Shown here: positions 3,024-15,661 of the stretch, piece by piece
Layout: every line of letters begins with the position of its first letter
Position numbering within the stretch: the stretch's first letter is position 1
Source: Candidatus Lambdaproteobacteria bacterium RIFOXYD2_FULL_50_16
Lineage (GTDB): Bacteria; SAR324; XYD2-FULL-50-16
Assembly (NCBI GenBank): GCA_001783695.1
Contig: MFNE01000020.1
Location: 1 to 41,934 of the forward strand
Length of the DNA: 41,934 nt
Direction: 5' to 3'
The notes under the pieces: generated by a model
Database searches by the model: none
The model's input: the letters and a program-made list of their open reading frames with translations, nothing else
Told to the model about the DNA's origin: nothing
Made by a program: the position numbers and the translations under genes

Positions 3024-6000
3024 ATGAAACCACAAAAACTAACCCTATTTTTGCTAGTCGCGCTCCTATTATCTAGTTGCGGCGACTCTTTTAAAACCGC
3101 CAAGACGGGCGTGATTCCGGGGGTCTTTCAAAAGGGGCCTTACCAAATCGGCAGTCCAGGCAAGGTGATTTGCCTGACCGACACCCTGGGCGACGAGGGC
3201 AACGGGGTTTACATCGAAACCACCGATAGCTTGGGCAGTGTCAACGTCTCTTGGGGCGATACCTGCGGGCGAGCGCGGGTCGAGGTTTATGGCACCTATT
3301 TTGACGAAAACACGGGCAAGCTCTCGGACGGGCCCATGTTAATCAAAAACCTCGTGGACCTCTATAGTGATTCCCAAGCAAACGGCAACATCGTCACCCA
3401 TATGGGCTATGAGCGGGCTAGATCGCTCTTTAGAGGGGGAATGCCCCTAGCCCAAGCTAGGATACAGGCGACCAAAGAGGTCTTTGCGGCCTTTGGATTT
3501 AGTGTGAGCGCCGACGCCAACCAGATGGCCTTGAGCGATGCCACGGGCGATGGGGCCGCCTTGATGTTGGTTTCAGCCACCATCATCGAAGGGCGAACTG
3601 CCCTAGAAGCAGCCGGGCTGGCCTACGCGATAGGCGAAGATCTTAAAGAAGACGGGAGCCTAGACAGTGCCACCTTGAATGCCAACATCAGCCAAAGCGC
3701 CTCCCGACTCAACCTGGCGGATATCCAAAACAATATGGCCAACCACTTTGGCGCCCAAGGGTTCACCTCTCCTGATCTAACGGTCGCTATGGCCCAGATG
3801 CCGCATAAAGCTCCCGCTTTCTCATTAAGCAGCATCAGCGGATCCACGACCGAATCAGGGGATAAAACCAGCTTTCAAGTGGTTCTTAAAGACCTGCGCC
3901 CGCAGTCAGACGTGACCCTCAATTTTTCCCAAAGCGACAGCACCGAAGGCAGTTTGGTCGCCAGTACCCTGTTTACGCCCAACAACTGGAACTCGGCCCA
4001 AACTATCGAAATCACAGGCTTAGACGATAGTTTGACCGATGGGGACCAGACCTACGAGATCACCATCACCAGTAGTTCTGCCGATCCCCTTTATAATAAC
4101 CTCCAGGTCGGCGTGCTCAAAGTAACCAACAAGGACAACGAATCGGCCGGGGTACTGGTAGGCGCCCTCTCCGGCGATGTTTCCGAATCGGGACTGAGTT
4201 CTACTTTTAGCGTCAAACTCACCTCGCCCCCCTCGGCTCCGGTGACCTTTAAATTAAGCTCTAACGATCTTACCGAAGCGACCGTAAACCCAGCGCAGTT
4301 GGTCTTTACCGATACCAATTGGAACGGGTTGCAAACGGTCACCGTTTCAGGGGTCAACGACAACTTCCAAGACGGTCCTCAATCGGTGACCATCCTCTTG
4401 GCCCCCGCTGCTAGCAGCGACCCGACCTACAACGGGCTTGACCCCAGGGATATTACCCTAAAAAACCTAGACGATGATAGCGCTGGTTTTGTGGTCGGGC
4501 AACCAAGCCGGGATACCTCGGAAAATCGGGCCATCGCCTCGTTCCCCGTCTCCTTGACCGCCCAACCGGACGCCGACGTGACCATTAAAGTGGTCTCTGA
4601 CAATAAAAACGAAGGGGAGCCTAGCTTGGCCAAATTGACCTTTACCCCCGACAACTGGGCCACCGCGCAGACGATCACCGTGATTGGTCAAGATGACGAT
4701 ATGGATGATGGGGATGTTACCTATCATATCCTTTTGGGTAAAGCCGTCTCGGACGACGGTAGTTATCAAGGGTTGGACCCGATCGACGTTACCCTAAAAA
4801 ACATCGACAACGACAGGTCTGGATTTACCCTGACCGCACCTTTAGGGGCGGTCAGCGAAGCCGGGACCTCGACAACCTTTACGATTGTGCTAAACTCCAA
4901 ACCCACGGCCGATGTGATGATCGCCGCCGCTAGCTCGGACTTGAGTGAAGGCCGCGTGGACACGGGCGCGGTCTTTTTTTCCCAGACCAATTGGTCCACT
5001 CCTCAGACCCTTAGGGTCACTGGCCTCAATGATGGGATTATCGACGGAAACCAATCTTTTCAAGTGATTTTGGCCAACCCGGTGTCCAATGACGGCTCTT
5101 ATGCCGCCCTCACCCCTAATCAAGTAACCCTGGTTAATACAGACGACGACACCGCCGGGTTTGTGGTGACCAGTTGGGACACACAGGCAAGCGAATTTGC
5201 CGATCGAGGTAATGCGGCAAATGCGAAAATTCGCCTTACCAAACCACCTCAAGCAAACGTGAACCTTGCCGTTTGGTCGGGAAACTCTTCTGAAATTTCC
5301 CTAAGTAGGTCTCAGCTCACCTTTACCCCAGCCAACTGGGACCTGTACCAGGATATTTTTGTCGCTGGCGTTGATGACGGTGTTTTTGACGGCACCCGTA
5401 ATACCCAGGTTTTGTTTGGGGCTTCCAGCTCGTCGGACCCCAACTACCATGGATTGACCCCTGCTTCACAATCTATTTCTGTTTTGGACGAAGGCGTGAT
5501 CAACTCGCCTTCTAGTTGTGACCAGCTTTGGTATCGCCAGGTATATGTAAGAGGGCAAGGGATTCCAGCTTCTTCGGATATCCCAATCGGCGCACTGGGG
5601 GGCAACACCGCCAGCTGCCGGATGGATTACAGTGGCGGATGGACTTTGGTGATGCACGGGTCCTATTATGCCGGCTTCGCAGGCGTCACGGGCTGGCTCC
5701 AGGGGCCGGCTTTGGACCCGGGCATCCTCCGGTCCGAATCGGGAGGCGCGGCCAAGTTTCCAGACGGATGGATTAGAGATGTGCAAGCCGTTCCAAACGT
5801 TCCTGGGCAAGGAGCCACGGTTCCCGAACTATTGATTGATTGCGCTAAATTTGGCTCTGGAGGCATCGCTCACATCAAAAATTACTGGTTCGATTTAGGG
5901 AATCCCAAAGTCTCTTGCGTAGATTTCTCAGTCAATTATGGCGCTTGGGTAAGCCATTCTTGTAGCAATGGAGTGTGGTCTGGAGTGGACAACTACTCCT

Positions 6001-6122
6001 ACTCAACTGGCAACGGAACCTATCCTACCGGTGCCTTCCGGCTTACGCCAACCTTGTACGTCAGCGCTTGGGAAACCACCCAGTGGTGCAGCGTCTATGT
6101 ACGTAACGGTTGGAGGCCTTAA
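3024..6122 (+). CDS. Large surface lipoprotein: five Calx-beta-like repeats and a fibrinogen-like C-terminal domain
   Basis: A 1032-aa lipoprotein. The signal peptide ends in the lipobox LLSSC with Cys19 as the lipidated residue. Residues about 30-250 resemble the N-terminal region common in large deltaproteobacterial and Leptospira lipoproteins (GVFQKGPYQIGS start, then a helical segment). Residues about 263-820 hold five tandem units of about 112 aa, each with a Ser-Glu start, a central NW..(P/A)QT motif, an acidic DD..DG turn and an (N/D)xDxD end, as in Calx-beta-type calcium-binding repeats. Residues about 830-1032 contain SGGWTLVM and paired Cys typical of bacterial fibrinogen-C/FReD-like lectin domains. 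Likely role: a calcium-stabilised cell-surface stalk with a carbohydrate- or protein-binding head. The ligand is unknown. Confidence 0.85.
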   Translation: MKPQKLTLFLLVALLLSSCGDSFKTAKTGVIPGVFQKGPYQIGSPGKVICLTDTLGDEGNGVYIETTDSLGSVNVSWGDTCGRARVEVYGTYFDENTGKLSDGPMLIKNLVDLYSDSQANGNIVTHMGYERARSLFRGGMPLAQARIQATKEVFAAFGFSVSADANQMALSDATGDGAALMLVSATIIEGRTALEAAGLAYAIGEDLKEDGSLDSATLNANISQSASRLNLADIQNNMANHFGAQGFTSPDLTVAMAQMPHKAPAFSLSSISGSTTESGDKTSFQVVLKDLRPQSDVTLNFSQSDSTEGSLVASTLFTPNNWNSAQTIEITGLDDSLTDGDQTYEITITSSSADPLYNNLQVGVLKVTNKDNESAGVLVGALSGDVSESGLSSTFSVKLTSPPSAPVTFKLSSNDLTEATVNPAQLVFTDTNWNGLQTVTVSGVNDNFQDGPQSVTILLAPAASSDPTYNGLDPRDITLKNLDDDSAGFVVGQPSRDTSENRAIASFPVSLTAQPDADVTIKVVSDNKNEGEPSLAKLTFTPDNWATAQTITVIGQDDDMDDGDVTYHILLGKAVSDDGSYQGLDPIDVTLKNIDNDRSGFTLTAPLGAVSEAGTSTTFTIVLNSKPTADVMIAAASSDLSEGRVDTGAVFFSQTNWSTPQTLRVTGLNDGIIDGNQSFQVILANPVSNDGSYAALTPNQVTLVNTDDDTAGFVVTSWDTQASEFADRGNAANAKIRLTKPPQANVNLAVWSGNSSEISLSRSQLTFTPANWDLYQDIFVAGVDDGVFDGTRNTQVLFGASSSSDPNYHGLTPASQSISVLDEGVINSPSSCDQLWYRQVYVRGQGIPASSDIPIGALGGNTASCRMDYSGGWTLVMHGSYYAGFAGVTGWLQGPALDPGILRSESGGAAKFPDGWIRDVQAVPNVPGQGATVPELLIDCAKFGSGGIAHIKNYWFDLGNPKVSCVDFSVNYGAWVSHSCSNGVWSGVDNYSYSTGNGTYPTGAFRLTPTLYVSAWETTQWCSVYVRNGWRP
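3810..5490 (+). repeat. Five tandem repeats of about 336 bp within the lipoprotein gene
   Basis: Five protein-level repeats start at about 3810, 4144, 4479, 4816 and 5155. Each carries an NNW/TNW/DNW/TNW/ANW tract about two thirds of the way through the first half, and repeats 1-4 end in an acidic N-x-D-(N/D)-(D/E) motif. The DNA copies have diverged, so they look like old duplications rather than a recent expansion. The fifth copy is the least regular. Confidence 0.85.
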
Positions 6123-6481
6123 CCGCAAAATCGGTATATTGCGCTTGAAAAAACCCATCTCTTCGTATCTAGCAAGGCACTTTCGTTCGCTCATCGGCTT
6201 ACGAAAGACCAGCTTTTGAAAAGGGGGTTATTGGAGGATGGGAAAGTCTTTTGCAGGAATACAAATTAAGACGGCCACGGTTTGTGACCTTTAAACTAGC
6301 TTTTTGCCCAGACACAAGCGCCCACCGATCTGCGAAGGCGGATCGCCGTTTACCTACAAACGATTTATAATTGGCCCAAAAATAAACGAATCCCCCTGCA
6401 CGGCAAAAATCTAACTTTTTCACTTTAATATACTGATATATAATACTACAGTCAGGCTAACTTTAACGGAGAAGCTCTAGG
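6123..6481. other. Intergenic stretch between lipoprotein gene and IS remnant
   Basis: About 360 bp with no credible gene. It is AT-rich towards its right end (around 6420-6450, a run of TATA-like steps). It contains a small inverted repeat, GATCTGC...GGATCGCC, near 6330-6350. No clear Rho-independent terminator for the lipoprotein gene was seen. The left boundary of the insertion element probably falls between 6430 and 6480, but I could not identify matching terminal inverted repeats. Confidence 0.5.
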
Positions 6482-7279
6482 AAACGCAAAATCGAGACTT
6501 CTTTCACCCTCGCCAATGCCCTGGTTTTTGCTCGTCCCTCGGCTGGATTTTTGGACAAGGTGGAGCAGTAGATCGATTGGGCACCGATGGAGCGGGTTAT
6601 CCAGAAGCGTTTGGGGTAAAACCAAGAGGCCACGGGAAAGGAGGGTACCCACCTTTGTTGAGGGTAAAAGTGTTGATGCTTCAGCGGTGGTACCATTTGA
6701 GCGATCCCCAAACCGAAGAGGCCCTGTTCGACCGAATCTCCTTCATGAAATTTATTGGCCTTTCACTCACCAGCGCGAAGCTCGATTCCACCACGATCTG
6801 TCGGTTTCGGAACGCTTTGAGTGCCAAGGAACTCGACCAAAAATTGTTAGCAATCCTCACGTCAGTTTGAAAATCAGGGCTTTTGGTCAAGACCGGGGCC
6901 ATCATTGATGCCAGCGTAGTGGCCACACCACGGCGGCCAGCCGGTTTGATGGTAAAGAATTAGGGGGATTGATTGAGGCGGTCCCGATGAAGGAAAAGCC
7001 TAAGGGAGCGCTGAAAATAGGGAACTGCTTAAAAAGAAAGACCTGACCAACGGCTTGATAAAGAAAGCGGTCCGAGGTGCGCCGTTAGAGGAGGATGACC
7101 AAGCCCGGAACCGTTCTATTTCCAGCTACCCTTACAAAACCGAGCGGGGCTTTGGGACCTTAAAACAAAACTAAGGTTTGAGCCGAGACAGATACTTGGG
7201 ATCAAGGAAACTCAACTACGAATGGGCGTTTATCGGACTTGGTTTCAACGTAAAAAAGGCAGTGAATTTGTGTTTTTAA
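6482..7279 (+). pseudogene. Decayed IS5-family transposase
   Basis: Transposase homology runs across two frames with several lesions. Frame 2 (6482-6600) gives KRKIETSFTL...FLDKVEQ, then a TAG, then IDWAPMERVIQ. Frame 1 (about 6600-6960) gives the DUF772-like core LRVKVLMLQRWYHLSDPQ with RISFMKFIGLSL and TTICRFRNAL, then a TGA at 6868-6870, then IIDASVVATPRRP (the first catalytic Asp region), then a TAG. The C-terminus returns to frame 2 with YKTERGFGTLK (catalytic Glu region), a TAA, then RYLGSRKLNYEWAFIGLGFN and a final TAA at 7277-7279. This is the domain order of IS5-group DDE transposases. At least two frameshifts and four internal stops make it inactive. Confidence 0.82.
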
Positions 7280-9615: not shown

Positions 9616-10446
9616 ATGCGTTACCTCTGGGCACTGGCGTTCTGGTTTATACCCACCCTTTTATGGGCTCAATGCCCAGGCATGGGAAGCCCCAATGAAT
9701 TATCCAAACTCCTAGCCCGCCTCAAATCCACCAACCCCTTAATGCTCGAAAACTATAGTTTAGTTTTCGAGATTAGCGCTTGTGAAAAAGAGGTCTGTTT
9801 AGAGGAGAACCAAGCCCAGAGGCTTAGCCAGCGCGCAGTGATCCATTTAGTTAAATTGGGGGAAAAAACGCGGGTACGTTTTTTAAAGGGACCTGACGCG
9901 CCTCAATGTCTTTTAAGGGTTGAGAGCCGCGATTATAAATGTATCCACTGCGGTGACCAAGACAATCAAAACTGCCGCGCTTTCGCCCAAGAGGGTTCTA
10001 AAACCCGGCTGCAAGGCACTAACCTAGACCGTGCCGACTTTGATTTTTTAGAAGACGCCAATCGGGTTAACCTCTGCGAGGTCTTAAAAGACGGTCAATA
10101 TTGGAAGATCACCGCCTCCCAAAAAACCGAGCCTACCTTGTATCCTATTATTGAGATCTACTTAGACCCCAAACGGGAGACCCCCCTGCTGGTCCGATTT
10201 TTTACGGATCAAGGGCTATTTAAGGTTTATCGGTTTTTCCCCAAATACTACATCCAAAAAGACCAGAAATGGGTCTCTACTTGGTTTCAAGTGCGCAATG
10301 TTTCTGGTCGCGAGGACCAGTTCCAGTTTGAAACCAGTTTTAAAATCCTCAAGGGCCCTAGCCAAGATTGGCGGCTTTATTTTGATACCAGCACGGACCC
10401 GATGATTGGGCAGGCAAAAGAAGATGAACTTTTTAAAACTCCATAA
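9616..10446 (+). CDS. LolA-like outer-membrane lipoprotein-sorting family periplasmic protein
   Basis: A 276-aa secreted protein. An AGGAGG site lies 6 bp before ATG 9616. The signal peptide is MRYLWALAFWFIPTLLWA with likely cleavage after residue 18. The body shows strand patterns typical of the LolA-like fold: repeated VIHLVKLGEKTRVRFLKGP, PIIEIYLDPKRETPLLVRFF and a WVSTWFQVRNVS strand near the end. Proteins of this type are often encoded next to MMPL/RND transporters and outer-membrane barrels and are thought to carry a lipidic cargo between membranes. It contains seven mature-region Cys in the first half, which may form disulfides. The next gene overlaps its end by 23 bp, so the operon is tight. 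Confidence 0.65.
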   Translation: MRYLWALAFWFIPTLLWAQCPGMGSPNELSKLLARLKSTNPLMLENYSLVFEISACEKEVCLEENQAQRLSQRAVIHLVKLGEKTRVRFLKGPDAPQCLLRVESRDYKCIHCGDQDNQNCRAFAQEGSKTRLQGTNLDRADFDFLEDANRVNLCEVLKDGQYWKITASQKTEPTLYPIIEIYLDPKRETPLLVRFFTDQGLFKVYRFFPKYYIQKDQKWVSTWFQVRNVSGREDQFQFETSFKILKGPSQDWRLYFDTSTDPMIGQAKEDELFKTP

Positions 10447-11821
10447 GGCTTTGGTCTTGGGTTTAGGTTTGTTTTTTGCCCCTCTTGATCTGGTGGCTGA
10501 AGACTTAGACCTAGAGCAGGCCCCTGTTCAAGAGGCAGAGGCTCCGGCTTGGAGCGAGAATCAGCCCGTTTCTGAACCCCATTGGGAGGAGTTTTATTTA
10601 AAGGCTAGTTACCGCTATTATTACCGACTAAAGATCCGCTACAGTGATGACCGCTGGTCGATCCCCTTTAATAACTCACTTCAAACCCGCGAAGAATCGG
10701 TGGAAACCCGCCATATCTACGGGGCCGATTCGAAGATTCAAGTCGCCAAAACCCTTTCCTCTTATCTGCGATTTGACTATTACTTCCGTCAGCGGTGGGA
10801 CCAATTGGGTGGTAAATATCAGGATTCGCCAGAGGTCAATCTTTATGAAGCCTATCTAGACTATACCCCAGGCACTTGGTCCGCCCGCATTGGGGGGCAA
10901 CAGATGCGCTTGGGCAAGATTGATTTTGACTCGCCGCTGGATGTTTTAAATCTCAAAGACCAAGACAAACAATACCACCTTGACCCAGAGGATCAAGCCT
11001 TGATTATGCCCGCAGGGATTATCAAAAAAAGCTTGGGTGAGTTGGACTGGAAGTTATATTGGGGGCCTTTTCAGAGGGTTAGTGAAGAGGCTACCTCGCT
11101 GCGTGCGAATTTTGGCCTAATGGCCAGCCAGGCTCAAGGGGCATTGCATTGGGACGCTGGTTTATTTAGATGGCCCGATCCAGATAACCGAATCGACCTT
11201 ACCTTTGTCTCCACCGCTATTAACCCCCTGCCCAAGCCCACCTTGACCTTGACCGACGCCCCCATGACCCTGGTATTTTACGATTTCGAGTGGGCGCAAG
11301 GTGCGGGACTTTTCAAAGGCGACTTTGCCTATTTTGGCCATAAAACCGTTTATTCAATCTTATTAAGTGAAAAAAACGGAACCATCGGTGAAGATTCCAA
11401 GCTAGAGAGCCTAAGCCTGCCCCAAGCGGCCTTGGCCCTGTCCTTTGAGCGGCAATGGGGGGATTTTTTTTGGATGCCTAGCTATAGCTACAAATCCTTG
11501 ATTCAAGTGCCCCAGGCTAGTTTGATCTACCAATTCGAAAACGGCCAGGGGCTGGCTCAACAAGAACGCAATTTAGAGCGGCACCAAGTAATGATGGCCC
11601 TGGCCTTTAGGCCCAATGATCATCTAAAGTTTGGGGCCTTAGGGTTTGTTTCAGCGCCGTATAATCGCCAAGGCTGGGCGCTGGAATCTTCGGATCAGAT
11701 TCTTGCTCAAGGATTTGAATGGATATTACGCTTAAGTCACACAGGGACCGAGGTTGATCAATCCACAGGCCGAGCCACAGAGCTTTCTAGGCTTGAAGGC
11801 AGCCTGAAATTTTGGTTTTAA
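10424..11821 (+). CDS. Outer-membrane beta-barrel protein (porin/DUF1302-like)
   Basis: A 465-aa protein. I chose ATG 10424 over a TTG at 10406 because it gives MNFLKLHKAL, a hydrophobic core and a VAE cleavage near 25. A short acidic, proline-rich linker follows (residues about 27-50), then about 400 residues of alternating amphipathic strands rich in Tyr, Trp and Phe (YLRFDYYFRQRW, WSARIGGQQMRLG), ending in LEGSLKFWF with the terminal Phe of outer-membrane barrels. It resembles the DUF1302/alginate-export porin style. It overlaps the LolA-like gene and ends 5 bp before the RND gene. Likely role: the outer-membrane component of the same trafficking system. Confidence 0.75.
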   Translation: MNFLKLHKALVLGLGLFFAPLDLVAEDLDLEQAPVQEAEAPAWSENQPVSEPHWEEFYLKASYRYYYRLKIRYSDDRWSIPFNNSLQTREESVETRHIYGADSKIQVAKTLSSYLRFDYYFRQRWDQLGGKYQDSPEVNLYEAYLDYTPGTWSARIGGQQMRLGKIDFDSPLDVLNLKDQDKQYHLDPEDQALIMPAGIIKKSLGELDWKLYWGPFQRVSEEATSLRANFGLMASQAQGALHWDAGLFRWPDPDNRIDLTFVSTAINPLPKPTLTLTDAPMTLVFYDFEWAQGAGLFKGDFAYFGHKTVYSILLSEKNGTIGEDSKLESLSLPQAALALSFERQWGDFFWMPSYSYKSLIQVPQASLIYQFENGQGLAQQERNLERHQVMMALAFRPNDHLKFGALGFVSAPYNRQGWALESSDQILAQGFEWILRLSHTGTEVDQSTGRATELSRLEGSLKFWF

Positions 11822-11826
11822 AGGCG

Positions 11827-14800
11827 ATGAAACTATTGTCTTACCTCTTGAGTTACAAAAAGGTGATTTTGGCCTTGGCCCTGGCTAGCAGCCTCTTTTG
11901 GCTTATGTTTGCAGGGACCAAGCTGGTGGGGCCCAATGGGCGGATCAAGCTGGACACCTCGCTGGAACCCTTTTTCTCACACGACCACGGGGACTACGAC
12001 CTTTTTAAAGCGACCGAGCGGGAATTTGGCGACGAAAACCTCCTTTTTTTGGTGGTCACCATCCCCCAAGGCCGGCTGGATTTAAATTTTTTATTGGCGT
12101 TTAAAGGCTTGGAGCAAGAACTAAATGAAAAGCTGCCTCACCTAGCCAAAACCCGTAGTTTGTTAAATTTTCCCAGCCAAAAAGGCCCTTGTGTGGGGCA
12201 CTCCTATTTTTATCATCCTTTTGCCGGCGCCTACTGCGAAGAGATTTTTGAACATTACCAAAGGCAGATGGCCTGTTTTAACCAAGCGCCTGCGGCCAAA
12301 GAGGCGGAGGAAGATATTTTAGCCGGGCTAGAGCAGGCTCCTGATTCGGTTCCAGAGTCCTCCTTAACCCTGGCCTGCCCAGAGGGTGAGGCGCAGCTAA
12401 ACCCAAAACAGCTGGCCTATCAGACCGAATCGTTGGTGCAAAGCAGTTTAGAGCGCCTCTCGGCTGATCCTTTGATTCAAGGGGAATTGGTAGGCAAAAA
12501 GGGAGAAGCGTTGGCAATTGTACTTAAAACCTCGGCAACCGATTCACAGGCCCGTCACCAGACCTTGGACCAGTTAGAGATCATGGTGGGAGATTGGCGT
12601 ACCCAAGGCTGGGAGATTTATTATGGCGGACAACCGCGGGAGGAATACGCTTCGGCCAAGGCTTTAATCAAAAGCCTGCTAAAGGTCGGCCCCTGGTCTA
12701 TGGTGATTTTGCTACTAGCCATGTGGGTTTTGTATCAACATTCCATGGCACCCGCGGCTTTGCTGCTAATTTCTTTTGCCGGATGTAGTTGGGCGGTTGG
12801 TTTTTTTGCATTATGGGGCGGGCAAATCAACCCGGTTACCCTGGTTTTACCCCCTTTGATTGCCACCGTAGGGACTAGCTATGTAATTCATTTTATAAGC
12901 CAATACTTTCAAGTAGCAGCCCACCCCGAACTAAGCCAGGACCAGATCATTTTAAAGACCTTAGAGCGGGTTTCCCTACCCTTGGGATTGGCACTTTTAA
13001 CCACGTTGGTTGGTTTTTTGGCGCTTTTATTTAGCCCGATTCCGGCGATCAGAGATATGGGGCTTTTTGCTTTAGTGGGGATCTTTTTTATGGCCTTTTT
13101 TACACTCCTTCTCCTCCCTTGCCTTTTGCCCCTTTGGCCGCGCCCGCAATCGGGCGAGCGCAAGGTCGGGGCTTGGGACCGAATCTTCACCTGGAGCGGG
13201 CAGTTGATTGCGACTAGTTCTAAAGGGTTAATTTATGGCTGGTTGGGTTTGGCTCTCCTTGGTAGTTTGGCCGCCTATCAAGTAAAGGTGGACGCCCAAA
13301 CCTCCAGCCTGCCCGAGTCTTCCCCAGTACGCCGTGACCGGGCCTATATTGAAGCCCGCTTTGGTGGCACTAGCTATCTGAGGCTTATTTTAATCAACCA
13401 AAAAGACAAGGTGACCAGCGCCCAAACCTTGGTGCAACTGGCAAAATTAAAAGAATGGCTTGCCCGCTTTCCTGAGCAACCAGAGCTCAAATTAGAGCGG
13501 CTGTATAGCCCTCTTGAATACATAAACGCCGAACGCCAAGGGCTTGACGGACTAACCGATGAAGAAGCGGTTTTTTATCTAAACCGCTTAGACCAGCGCT
13601 TTGGGGTCCGGTTTTTGTCGAGCGACAGCAAACAGTTAGCCTTGACCTTAAGGTTAAAAAGCCTTTCGACGGGTACCTTTTTAGCCTTTCGAGACCAGCT
13701 AAAACAGGAACTAAGTAAAGAGTTTCCAGGGCTTGAACATCGCATAACAGGCAGCCCGGTGCTCGCCGCTGCCTCGGCTGACCAGATTGCTTCTAGCCAA
13801 GGGATCAGCCTATTTTTAGCTTTTTTATTAATCGCCCTAATCCTGTCGTTCCTGTTTTTTTCGATCAAGGTCGGGCTCTGGGCCTTGGCTCCAAACCTAG
13901 TGGCGGTGGTGACTTTTTTTGGGATGCTGGGGCTTTTGGGGGTTCCAATAGGGGTCACCTTGAGTGTGATTGCTGCGATTGCTCTAGGGATTGGGGTGGA
14001 TGACACCATTCATTTTATTCTCCATTTTAAACGCAATTTATATGAGTTAAAAGAGGAGCGAGAGGCCATTCAAAAAACCCTACGCGCGGTGGGGAAGCCG
14101 ATGGTTTATACTACCCTGGTTTTGGCTTTTGGCTTTGGTACCCTGGCCTTTTCTGAACTCGACGGCCAAGTCACCTTTGGGCTGATGACCGCCTTTACTT
14201 TGCTAATGGCGCTTTTTGCCAACCTCTTTTTTCTGCCCGCCCTGTTGATCCGCACCCGCTTTGTGGTGGTGTGGGAATATCTTACGCTGCGTTATACCCC
14301 CGAATTTATTTCTTCTATTAGTCTGTTTTCTTCAATGAATATTCATGAATCGAAGCTGTTAACCCTAGTGGCGGACACGAGAGACTACGAAGATGGAGAG
14401 ATCATTTTTCGTGAAAATGAACCGGGCGACGATGTTTTTGTGATATTAGAGGGTCAAGTAGAAGTGTTTTTCGACGCCCGATTTCATGGCCAGGACCGAC
14501 CAATTACCTGCCTTGAGCGCGGCCAGGTCTTTGGCGAAAGGGTTTTGTTCCCCAAAGCCAACCGCATGGATTCTGCGAGGGCCTTAGGCAAGGTACAGCT
14601 TTTAGAATTAAATGTTAAAAACCTGACCGACCTTAAAACCCGCTTCCCTTTAATCGCGGTGAAGCTGTATTTTAACCTTGCCCAAAACCTCTGCCGTTCA
14701 ATACTGGCTTGCTACCGCGACCAAGACCACCAAGCCCCAGAGCAGGTTTCTGAAAAACGGGACTTGATTAATGCGTTAAGCCGTATTGGCCGAAAAGGCC

Positions 14801-15501
14801 CTAGTCAACGTAAGGAAAGTCGCTTGATGGCCTATTATCATCGGTGGGTGGTGGACCCGATCAACCGTCGGCGGGACTTCGCCCATTTCGACCACGACAC
14901 GTCCCATTTTATGTCGCTAATCGACCAGATTTTAGATTCGGGCGAGATTTCTTATTACCAGATTATTTTGATTAAGGGGTTTGTCCATTCTGAACTAACC
15001 CTAAGTCAATCAGAAAACCGACAAATCGAGCGGTTGATTGAGCGGATTGAAGCAGGTCAAGTTCAGGAGGTGCGCCCTGCCTTTTCTAATGCCTTCACAG
15101 ACCTAAACCCTCGCCAGATCTCATGGCTTCGGGAAAACTTTGAGCCTAAAAATTTGCCTTCCCAATCGAAGTTGTTTGTTCAAGGGGAGTTTGGGGGTTC
15201 TATGATTTTGATTCTTTCTGGGCGGATCGAAACCCGGCTGGAAACCGGTCTCGGAGCCCCTAAAGTGTTGTCCGAATATGGCGCTGGAGACTTTTTAGCC
15301 GAACGTGCCTTGTTTGTAGGCCAGATGGTCCGCCCCTATTCGGCGGTGGCTTTGACCGACACAGAGGTGATTTTTTTAAGCCCCGAAGGGTTCCAAAAAA
15401 TCGTCAAACAACGAAAACGCTTAGCCGCGCAACTGGCCTTTAATATGGTTGGGTTCTTGGCAACTAAGTTACGCCGCTGCATCTTAAGTGTTTATGCTTG
15501 A
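11827..15501 (+). CDS. RND/MMPL-family transporter fused to two cyclic-nucleotide-binding-type domains
   Basis: A 1224-aa inner-membrane protein. TM1 is at about 12-30, followed by a periplasmic loop to about 280, five TMs to about 440, TM7 near 465, a second periplasmic loop, then five TMs to about 820. The last block holds GIGVDDTIHFILHF, the proton-relay/SSD signature of MMPL and hopanoid-type RND exporters. After residue 845 the chain is cytoplasmic. A first CAP_ED domain (about 848-960; EDGEIIF, then FGERVLF as the phosphate-binding cassette) and a second (about 1098-1218; cassette degenerate as FLAERALF) flank a helical segment. This fits a pump gated by a cyclic nucleotide or similar ligand. 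Cargo and ligand are unknown. Confidence 0.85.
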   Translation: MKLLSYLLSYKKVILALALASSLFWLMFAGTKLVGPNGRIKLDTSLEPFFSHDHGDYDLFKATEREFGDENLLFLVVTIPQGRLDLNFLLAFKGLEQELNEKLPHLAKTRSLLNFPSQKGPCVGHSYFYHPFAGAYCEEIFEHYQRQMACFNQAPAAKEAEEDILAGLEQAPDSVPESSLTLACPEGEAQLNPKQLAYQTESLVQSSLERLSADPLIQGELVGKKGEALAIVLKTSATDSQARHQTLDQLEIMVGDWRTQGWEIYYGGQPREEYASAKALIKSLLKVGPWSMVILLLAMWVLYQHSMAPAALLLISFAGCSWAVGFFALWGGQINPVTLVLPPLIATVGTSYVIHFISQYFQVAAHPELSQDQIILKTLERVSLPLGLALLTTLVGFLALLFSPIPAIRDMGLFALVGIFFMAFFTLLLLPCLLPLWPRPQSGERKVGAWDRIFTWSGQLIATSSKGLIYGWLGLALLGSLAAYQVKVDAQTSSLPESSPVRRDRAYIEARFGGTSYLRLILINQKDKVTSAQTLVQLAKLKEWLARFPEQPELKLERLYSPLEYINAERQGLDGLTDEEAVFYLNRLDQRFGVRFLSSDSKQLALTLRLKSLSTGTFLAFRDQLKQELSKEFPGLEHRITGSPVLAAASADQIASSQGISLFLAFLLIALILSFLFFSIKVGLWALAPNLVAVVTFFGMLGLLGVPIGVTLSVIAAIALGIGVDDTIHFILHFKRNLYELKEEREAIQKTLRAVGKPMVYTTLVLAFGFGTLAFSELDGQVTFGLMTAFTLLMALFANLFFLPALLIRTRFVVVWEYLTLRYTPEFISSISLFSSMNIHESKLLTLVADTRDYEDGEIIFRENEPGDDVFVILEGQVEVFFDARFHGQDRPITCLERGQVFGERVLFPKANRMDSARALGKVQLLELNVKNLTDLKTRFPLIAVKLYFNLAQNLCRSILACYRDQDHQAPEQVSEKRDLINALSRIGRKGPSQRKESRLMAYYHRWVVDPINRRRDFAHFDHDTSHFMSLIDQILDSGEISYYQIILIKGFVHSELTLSQSENRQIERLIERIEAGQVQEVRPAFSNAFTDLNPRQISWLRENFEPKNLPSQSKLFVQGEFGGSMILILSGRIETRLETGLGAPKVLSEYGAGDFLAERALFVGQMVRPYSAVALTDTEVIFLSPEGFQKIVKQRKRLAAQLAFNMVGFLATKLRRCILSVYA

Positions 15502-15573: not shown

Positions 15574-15661
15574 GGAGGGTTGGCAGAGCGGTTGAATGCA
15601 ACGGTTTCGAAAGCCGTCAGGTGTAACAGCCTCGGGGGTTCAAATCCCCCACCCTCTTCCA
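15574..15661 (+). tRNA. tRNA-Ser (anticodon CGA)
   Basis: An 88-nt cloverleaf with encoded CCA. The acceptor stem is GGAGGGT/ACCCTCT; the anticodon loop TTCGAAA sits on an ACGGT/GCCGT stem and gives CGA (reads UCG). A long variable arm follows, as expected for a class II tRNA, then a GGGGGTTCAAATCCCCC T-arm. The discriminator base is T rather than the more usual G. It lies about 70 bp after the RND gene. Confidence 0.95.

Follow-up and report, generated by a model that had tools for sequence, protein, structure and literature searches.

What a transporter of the RND/MMPL type does with two cyclic nucleotide-binding domains (CNBDs) fused to its C-terminus, and on which transport route it works, is the question raised by a set of three genes from Candidatus Lambdaproteobacteria bacterium RIFOXYD2_FULL_50_16 (SAR324; genome of 3.14 Mb). 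The window analysed is the whole contig MFNE01000020.1 with its 41,934 nucleotides; positions are those of this contig and protein residues are counted from the ATG. On the forward strand, the set encodes a LolA-fold periplasmic protein (9616..10446), an outer-membrane beta-barrel (10424..11821, 465 amino acids) and the fused pump (11827..15501, 1,224 amino acids). The first two genes overlap by 23 bp, with the ATG of the second at 10424, and a 5-bp gap separates the second from the third, whose ATG lies at 11827. The positions of the open reading frames bear out the coordinates, strand and layout given in an initial annotation, and this spacing suggests that the three genes are co-transcribed.

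Control of RND/MMPL pumps is usually ascribed to transcription or to small partner proteins. If a pump carried a receptor of its own for cyclic AMP (cAMP) or cyclic GMP (cGMP), a second messenger would act directly on lipid traffic in the envelope, and outer-membrane lipid export would come under post-translational control, here in a globally abundant and little-cultured ocean phylum. The type of gene module is already known, whereas pumps of this class are not known to be equipped with a switch of this kind, so that the RND pump fused to CNBDs is a new, real and testable form. The initial annotation had proposed a route for a lipid or hydrophobic cargo, gated by a nucleotide or another small ligand, of which we retain nucleotide gating of a hydrophobic-cargo route as the best reading, backed by the intact nucleotide-binding cassette of the first CNBD (CNBD-A) and by eight class III nucleotide cyclases encoded in the same genome. 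According to this reading, the set would be an exporter of the LolA/DUF1302/MMPL type that moves a lipid or another hydrophobe from the inner to the outer membrane and whose pump would be gated by cAMP or cGMP, a proposal to which we give an even chance.

The RND pump and its tail with two CNBDs

The membrane part of the pump (11827..14259) has the RND architecture of 12 transmembrane helices (TM) and two periplasmic porter loops, with invariant columns in the alignment, and matches the MMPL family PF03176 with an E-value of 6.3e-30 and 104.7 bits against a cut-off of 20.5. The AlphaFold2 model of the pump (residues 25-1224, 30-row alignment), with a mean predicted local distance difference test (pLDDT) score of 80, shows an RND fold, for which Foldseek gave MmpL4 and MmpL5 as the best matches, followed by HpnN and MmpL3 among others, at identities of 11-15%. 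As these proteins move lipids or hydrophobic molecules, the structural likeness supports a hydrophobic cargo, yet these closest solved structures are without CNBDs. HpnN is also the top PDB sequence match; however, the hypothesis that the pump is the hopanoid transporter HpnN itself was rejected, since the scores lie far below the cut-offs (105.8 against 751.85 for TIGR03480 and 48.9 against 1100 for NF052374). For the HAE3 RND family (TIGR00921), 174.9 bits were obtained against a cut-off of 351.9, and the pump appears related to this family while lying outside its filed membership. The first porter loop contains four cysteines that do not vary among the fusion pumps, and the aspartate pair of the proton relay in TM10 (VDD) is retained.

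Behind TM12, a conserved linker (14260..14379) with the motif W[DE]Y... runs continuously, as seen in the alignment, into CNBD-A (14380..14634), whose cyclic-nucleotide cassette FGERVLFPKANR holds Glu904 and Arg913. It is followed by a poorly conserved helical segment (14710..15030) and by the second domain, CNBD-B (15148..15411), with the cassette AERALFVGQMVR. The presence of two CAP_ED-like domains, as recognised in the initial annotation, was confirmed in three ways: the tail exceeds the cut-off of PF00027 in two stretches (E-value 3.5e-33), the two domains are separate significant matches of 63.1 and 61.1 bits in a whole-genome search, and the AlphaFold2 model folds the tail as CNBD, helices and CNBD directly after TM12. 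The CNBDs mostly have pLDDT values of about 70-90, while the linker between them falls to 43-59 in part. As expected for a CNBD, the sole significant match in a viral structure library is a CRP-like protein. The helices between the domains, suspected by eye to be TerB-like, gave no accepted Pfam domain, which leaves the TerB assignment without Pfam support.

No relative with data lacks the phosphate-binding Arg of CNBD-A, and the ribose Glu is kept in all of these except L075/L076 and L032. The Glu-to-Arg spacing of nine in CNBD-A is PKA-like and the spacing in CNBD-B is CRP-like. Among PDB sequences, the tail is matched best by domains of cGMP- and cAMP-dependent kinases. Beside the eight cyclases, the genome contains 16 CNBD matches in the profile search, so that cyclic-nucleotide signalling is to be expected in it. 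Judged by its residues, CNBD-A looks able to sense cAMP or cGMP; those that follow its Arg vary among members. Among the ligands suggested earlier, the cyclic mononucleotides are backed by the cassette and the cyclases, whereas cyclic di-AMP is not favoured, because the cassette is of the cyclic-mononucleotide (PKA/CRP) type. The notion of paired sensors held in so far as two CNBDs exist, but they are not equivalent: CNBD-A is conserved, whereas CNBD-B, although its Glu and Arg are both intact in the window protein, is degenerate in most relatives, with loss of the phosphate Arg.

The state of CNBD-B and the variability of the inter-domain segment are points in favour of an alternative in which the set does export a hydrophobe but the tail is no cyclic-nucleotide switch, the CNBDs instead binding another ligand or none and serving as a platform for oligomerisation or docking, for example of a lipid-synthesis enzyme or a carrier protein. 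CNBD folds serve other ligands in the CRP/FNR family, and MmpL5 structures with the bound carrier protein AcpM, as named in the structure titles, are a precedent for cytoplasmic docking on MmpL pumps. However, relatives that share only about 27-42% identity with the window pump still have the Glu and Arg of CNBD-A, and so do one-CNBD forms of a second phylum (see below); such retention is hard to explain without ligand binding, and the cyclases of the genome likewise argue against a mere platform. We regard this alternative as unlikely, albeit as a serious competitor. A CNBD built into a membrane transporter or channel as a regulator is known from MFS-CNBD proteins, SthK and the CNG/HCN channels, which belong to superfamilies different from RND; the MFS-CNBD fusions are mentioned in a review of transporter regulation (PMC10710835).

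Conservation and distribution of the fusion

A profile spanning the MMPL-CNBD junction was used to survey 52 genomes of the SAR324 phylum. Full-length fusion matches of 378-460 bits were found in about 30 of them, in addition to a fusion split between frames in G030 (256 bits) and a divergent form with one CNBD in G006 (206 bits). The next match, with 112 bits, covers MMPL alone, which separates the 52 genomes cleanly. In a scan of 84,980 species, nearly all full-length matches came from metagenome-assembled genomes (MAGs) named SAR324 or filed under an older name, for example Deltaproteobacteria; the labels Campylobacterales, Myxococcota or Neomarinimicrobiota, which a few of them bear, are taken as given. 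Where a fusion locus has 3 kb or more of upstream sequence (25 loci), a relative of the LolA-fold protein lies nearby in 21, a relative of the barrel in 21 and both in 20. Recurrence of the three-gene set and of the fusion throughout the phylum, with pumps at 27-42% identity to that of the window, is far beyond chance. As most small marine SAR324 genomes have retained the set, a housekeeping role seems likely.

This conservation refutes the explanation that the fusion arose by chance or in assembly, or that the gene set is decayed and functionless. A fusion split into two frames at locus L046 could be taken in its favour, but about 30 genomes, assembled independently, carry it intact, the tree unites the two-CNBD fusions in a single clade with a support of 100, and the partner genes are conserved with them; we consider this explanation highly improbable.

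Among 383 genomes searched, three further full-length matches (180-195 bits) were obtained (L153-L155), all from one family of genomes, which makes up the entire sample of another small phylum with its three genomes. In L154, a LolA_like gene (1.1e-35) overlaps an MMPL gene with a single CNBD (8.7e-16), which has the intact cassette GEMGLISDHPR and a recognisable W-containing linker. With a one-CNBD fusion in three of three genomes of this second phylum, exclusiveness of the fusion to SAR324 is ruled out. The architecture is unusual, as had been proposed initially, but it is not a singleton, being phylum-wide in SAR324 and represented by the one-CNBD form elsewhere. A separate origin of the one-CNBD form within SAR324 (L047), considered in view of its long separate branch in the tree, was not adopted, as a single origin was not rejected (p-AU 0.46). 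The simplest reading is that CNBD-A would be the older part and that CNBD-B was added in SAR324. The wider proposal, that RND lipid exporters throughout the phylum are gated directly by cyclic nucleotides through their fused CNBDs, with an ancestral one-CNBD form and a tuning CNBD added in SAR324, is put forward tentatively, with somewhat less than an even chance.

A search of an open-access library yielded no description of an RND or MMPL protein to which a CNBD is fused, and an earlier description elsewhere is possible; the domains of the pump will already be on record through automatic annotation. In the SAR324 papers examined, neither MMPL nor RND proteins are mentioned.

Partner proteins, cargo and direction of transport

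The first protein of the set (276 amino acids) has a signal peptide and six cysteines that are invariant or nearly so across its family, whose members adjoin the fusion. It has no Pfam match, remaining below the cut-off of LolA_like (PF17131), for which two SAR324 relatives reach just 24.4 and 18.6 bits against a cut-off of 30. However, its AlphaFold2 model (pLDDT 88) is matched best by Foldseek to crystal structures of LolA3 of Porphyromonas gingivalis (E-value 2e-11), of LolA-superfamily proteins and of a DUF1329 protein (7.5e-9), and the family gives a weak profile match around a shared GT[ND]...D motif; according to the model, the protein is predicted to have the half-barrel fold of the LolA superfamily. 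The barrel likewise has no Pfam match and does not reach the cut-off of DUF1302 (PF06980), but its family profile aligns with barrels of the DUF1302 type at an hhalign probability of 96.6%, and its C-terminal KFWF is a typical outer-membrane protein ending. It appears to be a distant DUF1302 relative. Searches of PDB sequences with the two family profiles gave nothing useful. The envelope module of LolA-like protein, barrel and MMPL protein described in the initial annotation is upheld, with the LolA part resting on a model match and the barrel on a profile-profile match.

Similar modules have been described for hydrophobic molecules. AmeABCD of Castellaniella defragrans, whose deletion lowers monoterpene tolerance, consists of an HAE3 RND pump, a DUF1302 barrel, a DUF1329 protein of the LolA superfamily and a COG4447 protein (PMC6394551). 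It resembles the present set in that an HAE3-like RND pump, a LolA-superfamily protein and a DUF1302 barrel are encoded together; in contrast, AmeD has 787 amino acids, no CNBD is described, and the sequences are distant. Membership of the set in AmeABCD-type HAE3 cassettes was rejected, since the fourth gene, COG4447 (YCF48-like), is not part of it; a tRNA gene and genes on the opposite strand come next. In Thalassolituus, TOL_3187 (MMPL and LolA-like) and the porin TOL_3188, which work together, are induced on the n-C28 alkane (PMC6304351), but in that case the MMPL protein itself carries the LolA-like domain, no CNBD is described, and the link is to growth on alkanes. The genome of the window itself encodes an unfused operon of the same three part types (L143; G000:C10:85000-104000), with a TetR regulator, two MMPL genes, LolA_like (1e-53), DUF1302 (PF06980; 5e-25) and a regulator-like gene. 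It lacks a CNBD and is presumably controlled by transcription, given the TetR-type regulators beside it.

One neighbourhood is informative about the cargo. In the divergent SAR324 relative from G006 (L047, G006:C86; L148), genes for LolA_like (6.4e-51), a barrel and the MMPL protein with one CNBD are followed by genes resembling those of polyunsaturated fatty acid (PUFA) synthases. The first encodes a PfaA-like KS-AT-ACP-KR-DH protein of 2,071 amino acids and the second a PfaC-like protein of 1,867 amino acids with two ketoacyl-synthase and three FabA stretches, which we take to be the layout of PUFA (Pfa) synthases. Based on this neighbour and on the published modules, a lipid or other hydrophobe is our best guess for the cargo, and export would be the likelier direction.

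The published modules also fit a different use, in which the set serves the uptake of, or the tolerance to, an environmental hydrophobe such as an alkane, aromatic or terpene rather than the export of a self-made lipid. The alkane induction of TOL_3187/TOL_3188 (PMC6304351) and the protection against monoterpenes by AmeABCD (PMC6394551) are precedents, and SAR324 MAGs encode aromatic-hydrocarbon degradation (PMC11409719). However, no catabolic gene adjoining the set was recognised within the window, and the long-chain alkane pathway is reported to be absent from SAR324 (PMC11409719), for which reasons alkanes as the main cargo were set aside despite the precedent. The single informative neighbour is one of lipid synthesis, and the likely housekeeping role also speaks against environmental uptake or tolerance, a use that we regard as improbable.

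For the preferred reading, a gated exporter of a lipid or hydrophobe, the following mechanism is proposed. The MMPL/RND protein would use the proton gradient and lift the cargo from the inner membrane, the LolA-fold protein would carry it through the periplasm, and the DUF1302-type barrel would receive or insert it at the outer membrane. Binding of cAMP (or cGMP) to CNBD-A next to TM12 would result in a hinge movement, which the conserved linker would relay to the transmembrane core, turning pump activity up or down. CNBD-B would tune this switch and is probably just structural in many relatives.

Several observations weigh against this mechanism, in addition to the degeneration of CNBD-B. The relay aspartate of TM4, expected in related pumps such as MmpL3 and HpnN, is replaced by Ser or Ala in the window pump (residues 345-356) and in most members, being kept in the L072/L073/L075/L076 subgroup, so that proton coupling may be altered in the fusion pumps without it. 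The window protein has an unusual Met-Asp at Arg+1/+2 of CNBD-A, and CNBD folds often lose ligand binding. Partner genes are not nearby in L032, in L057 and at the second copy in L031, and the PUFA-synthase neighbour, seen once and in a divergent one-CNBD relative, carries limited weight. The CNBDs offer a simple handle, as a ligand-controlled RND pump could help to study the transport cycle of LolA/barrel/MMPL systems.

Surroundings of the gene set and other MMPL loci

A tRNA-Ser gene at 15574 lies 3' of the three genes, and the genes flanking the set on both sides are on the opposite strand, which makes the set a closed unit. The promoter and terminator scan was uninformative, with no promoter-like site for the set above the level of shuffled sequences.

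Elsewhere in the same genome, an MMPL gene is clustered with two ketoacyl synthases, genes that by eye are FabG-like and FabZ-like, and a flavin oxidoreductase, in an arrangement resembling the aryl-polyene type (L145; G000:C34). On another contig (L144; G000:C19), an MlaC-like gene adjoins an MMPL gene as an HpnM/HpnN-like pair, and a LolA_like gene stands beside what by eye are two FtsX-like permeases and an ABC ATPase. Within the window, inspection by eye further showed short overlapping open reading frames resembling a broken transposase at 6463-6908 and, at 3024-6122, a secreted lipoprotein-like protein of 1,032 amino acids with several long, Calx-beta-like internal repeats.

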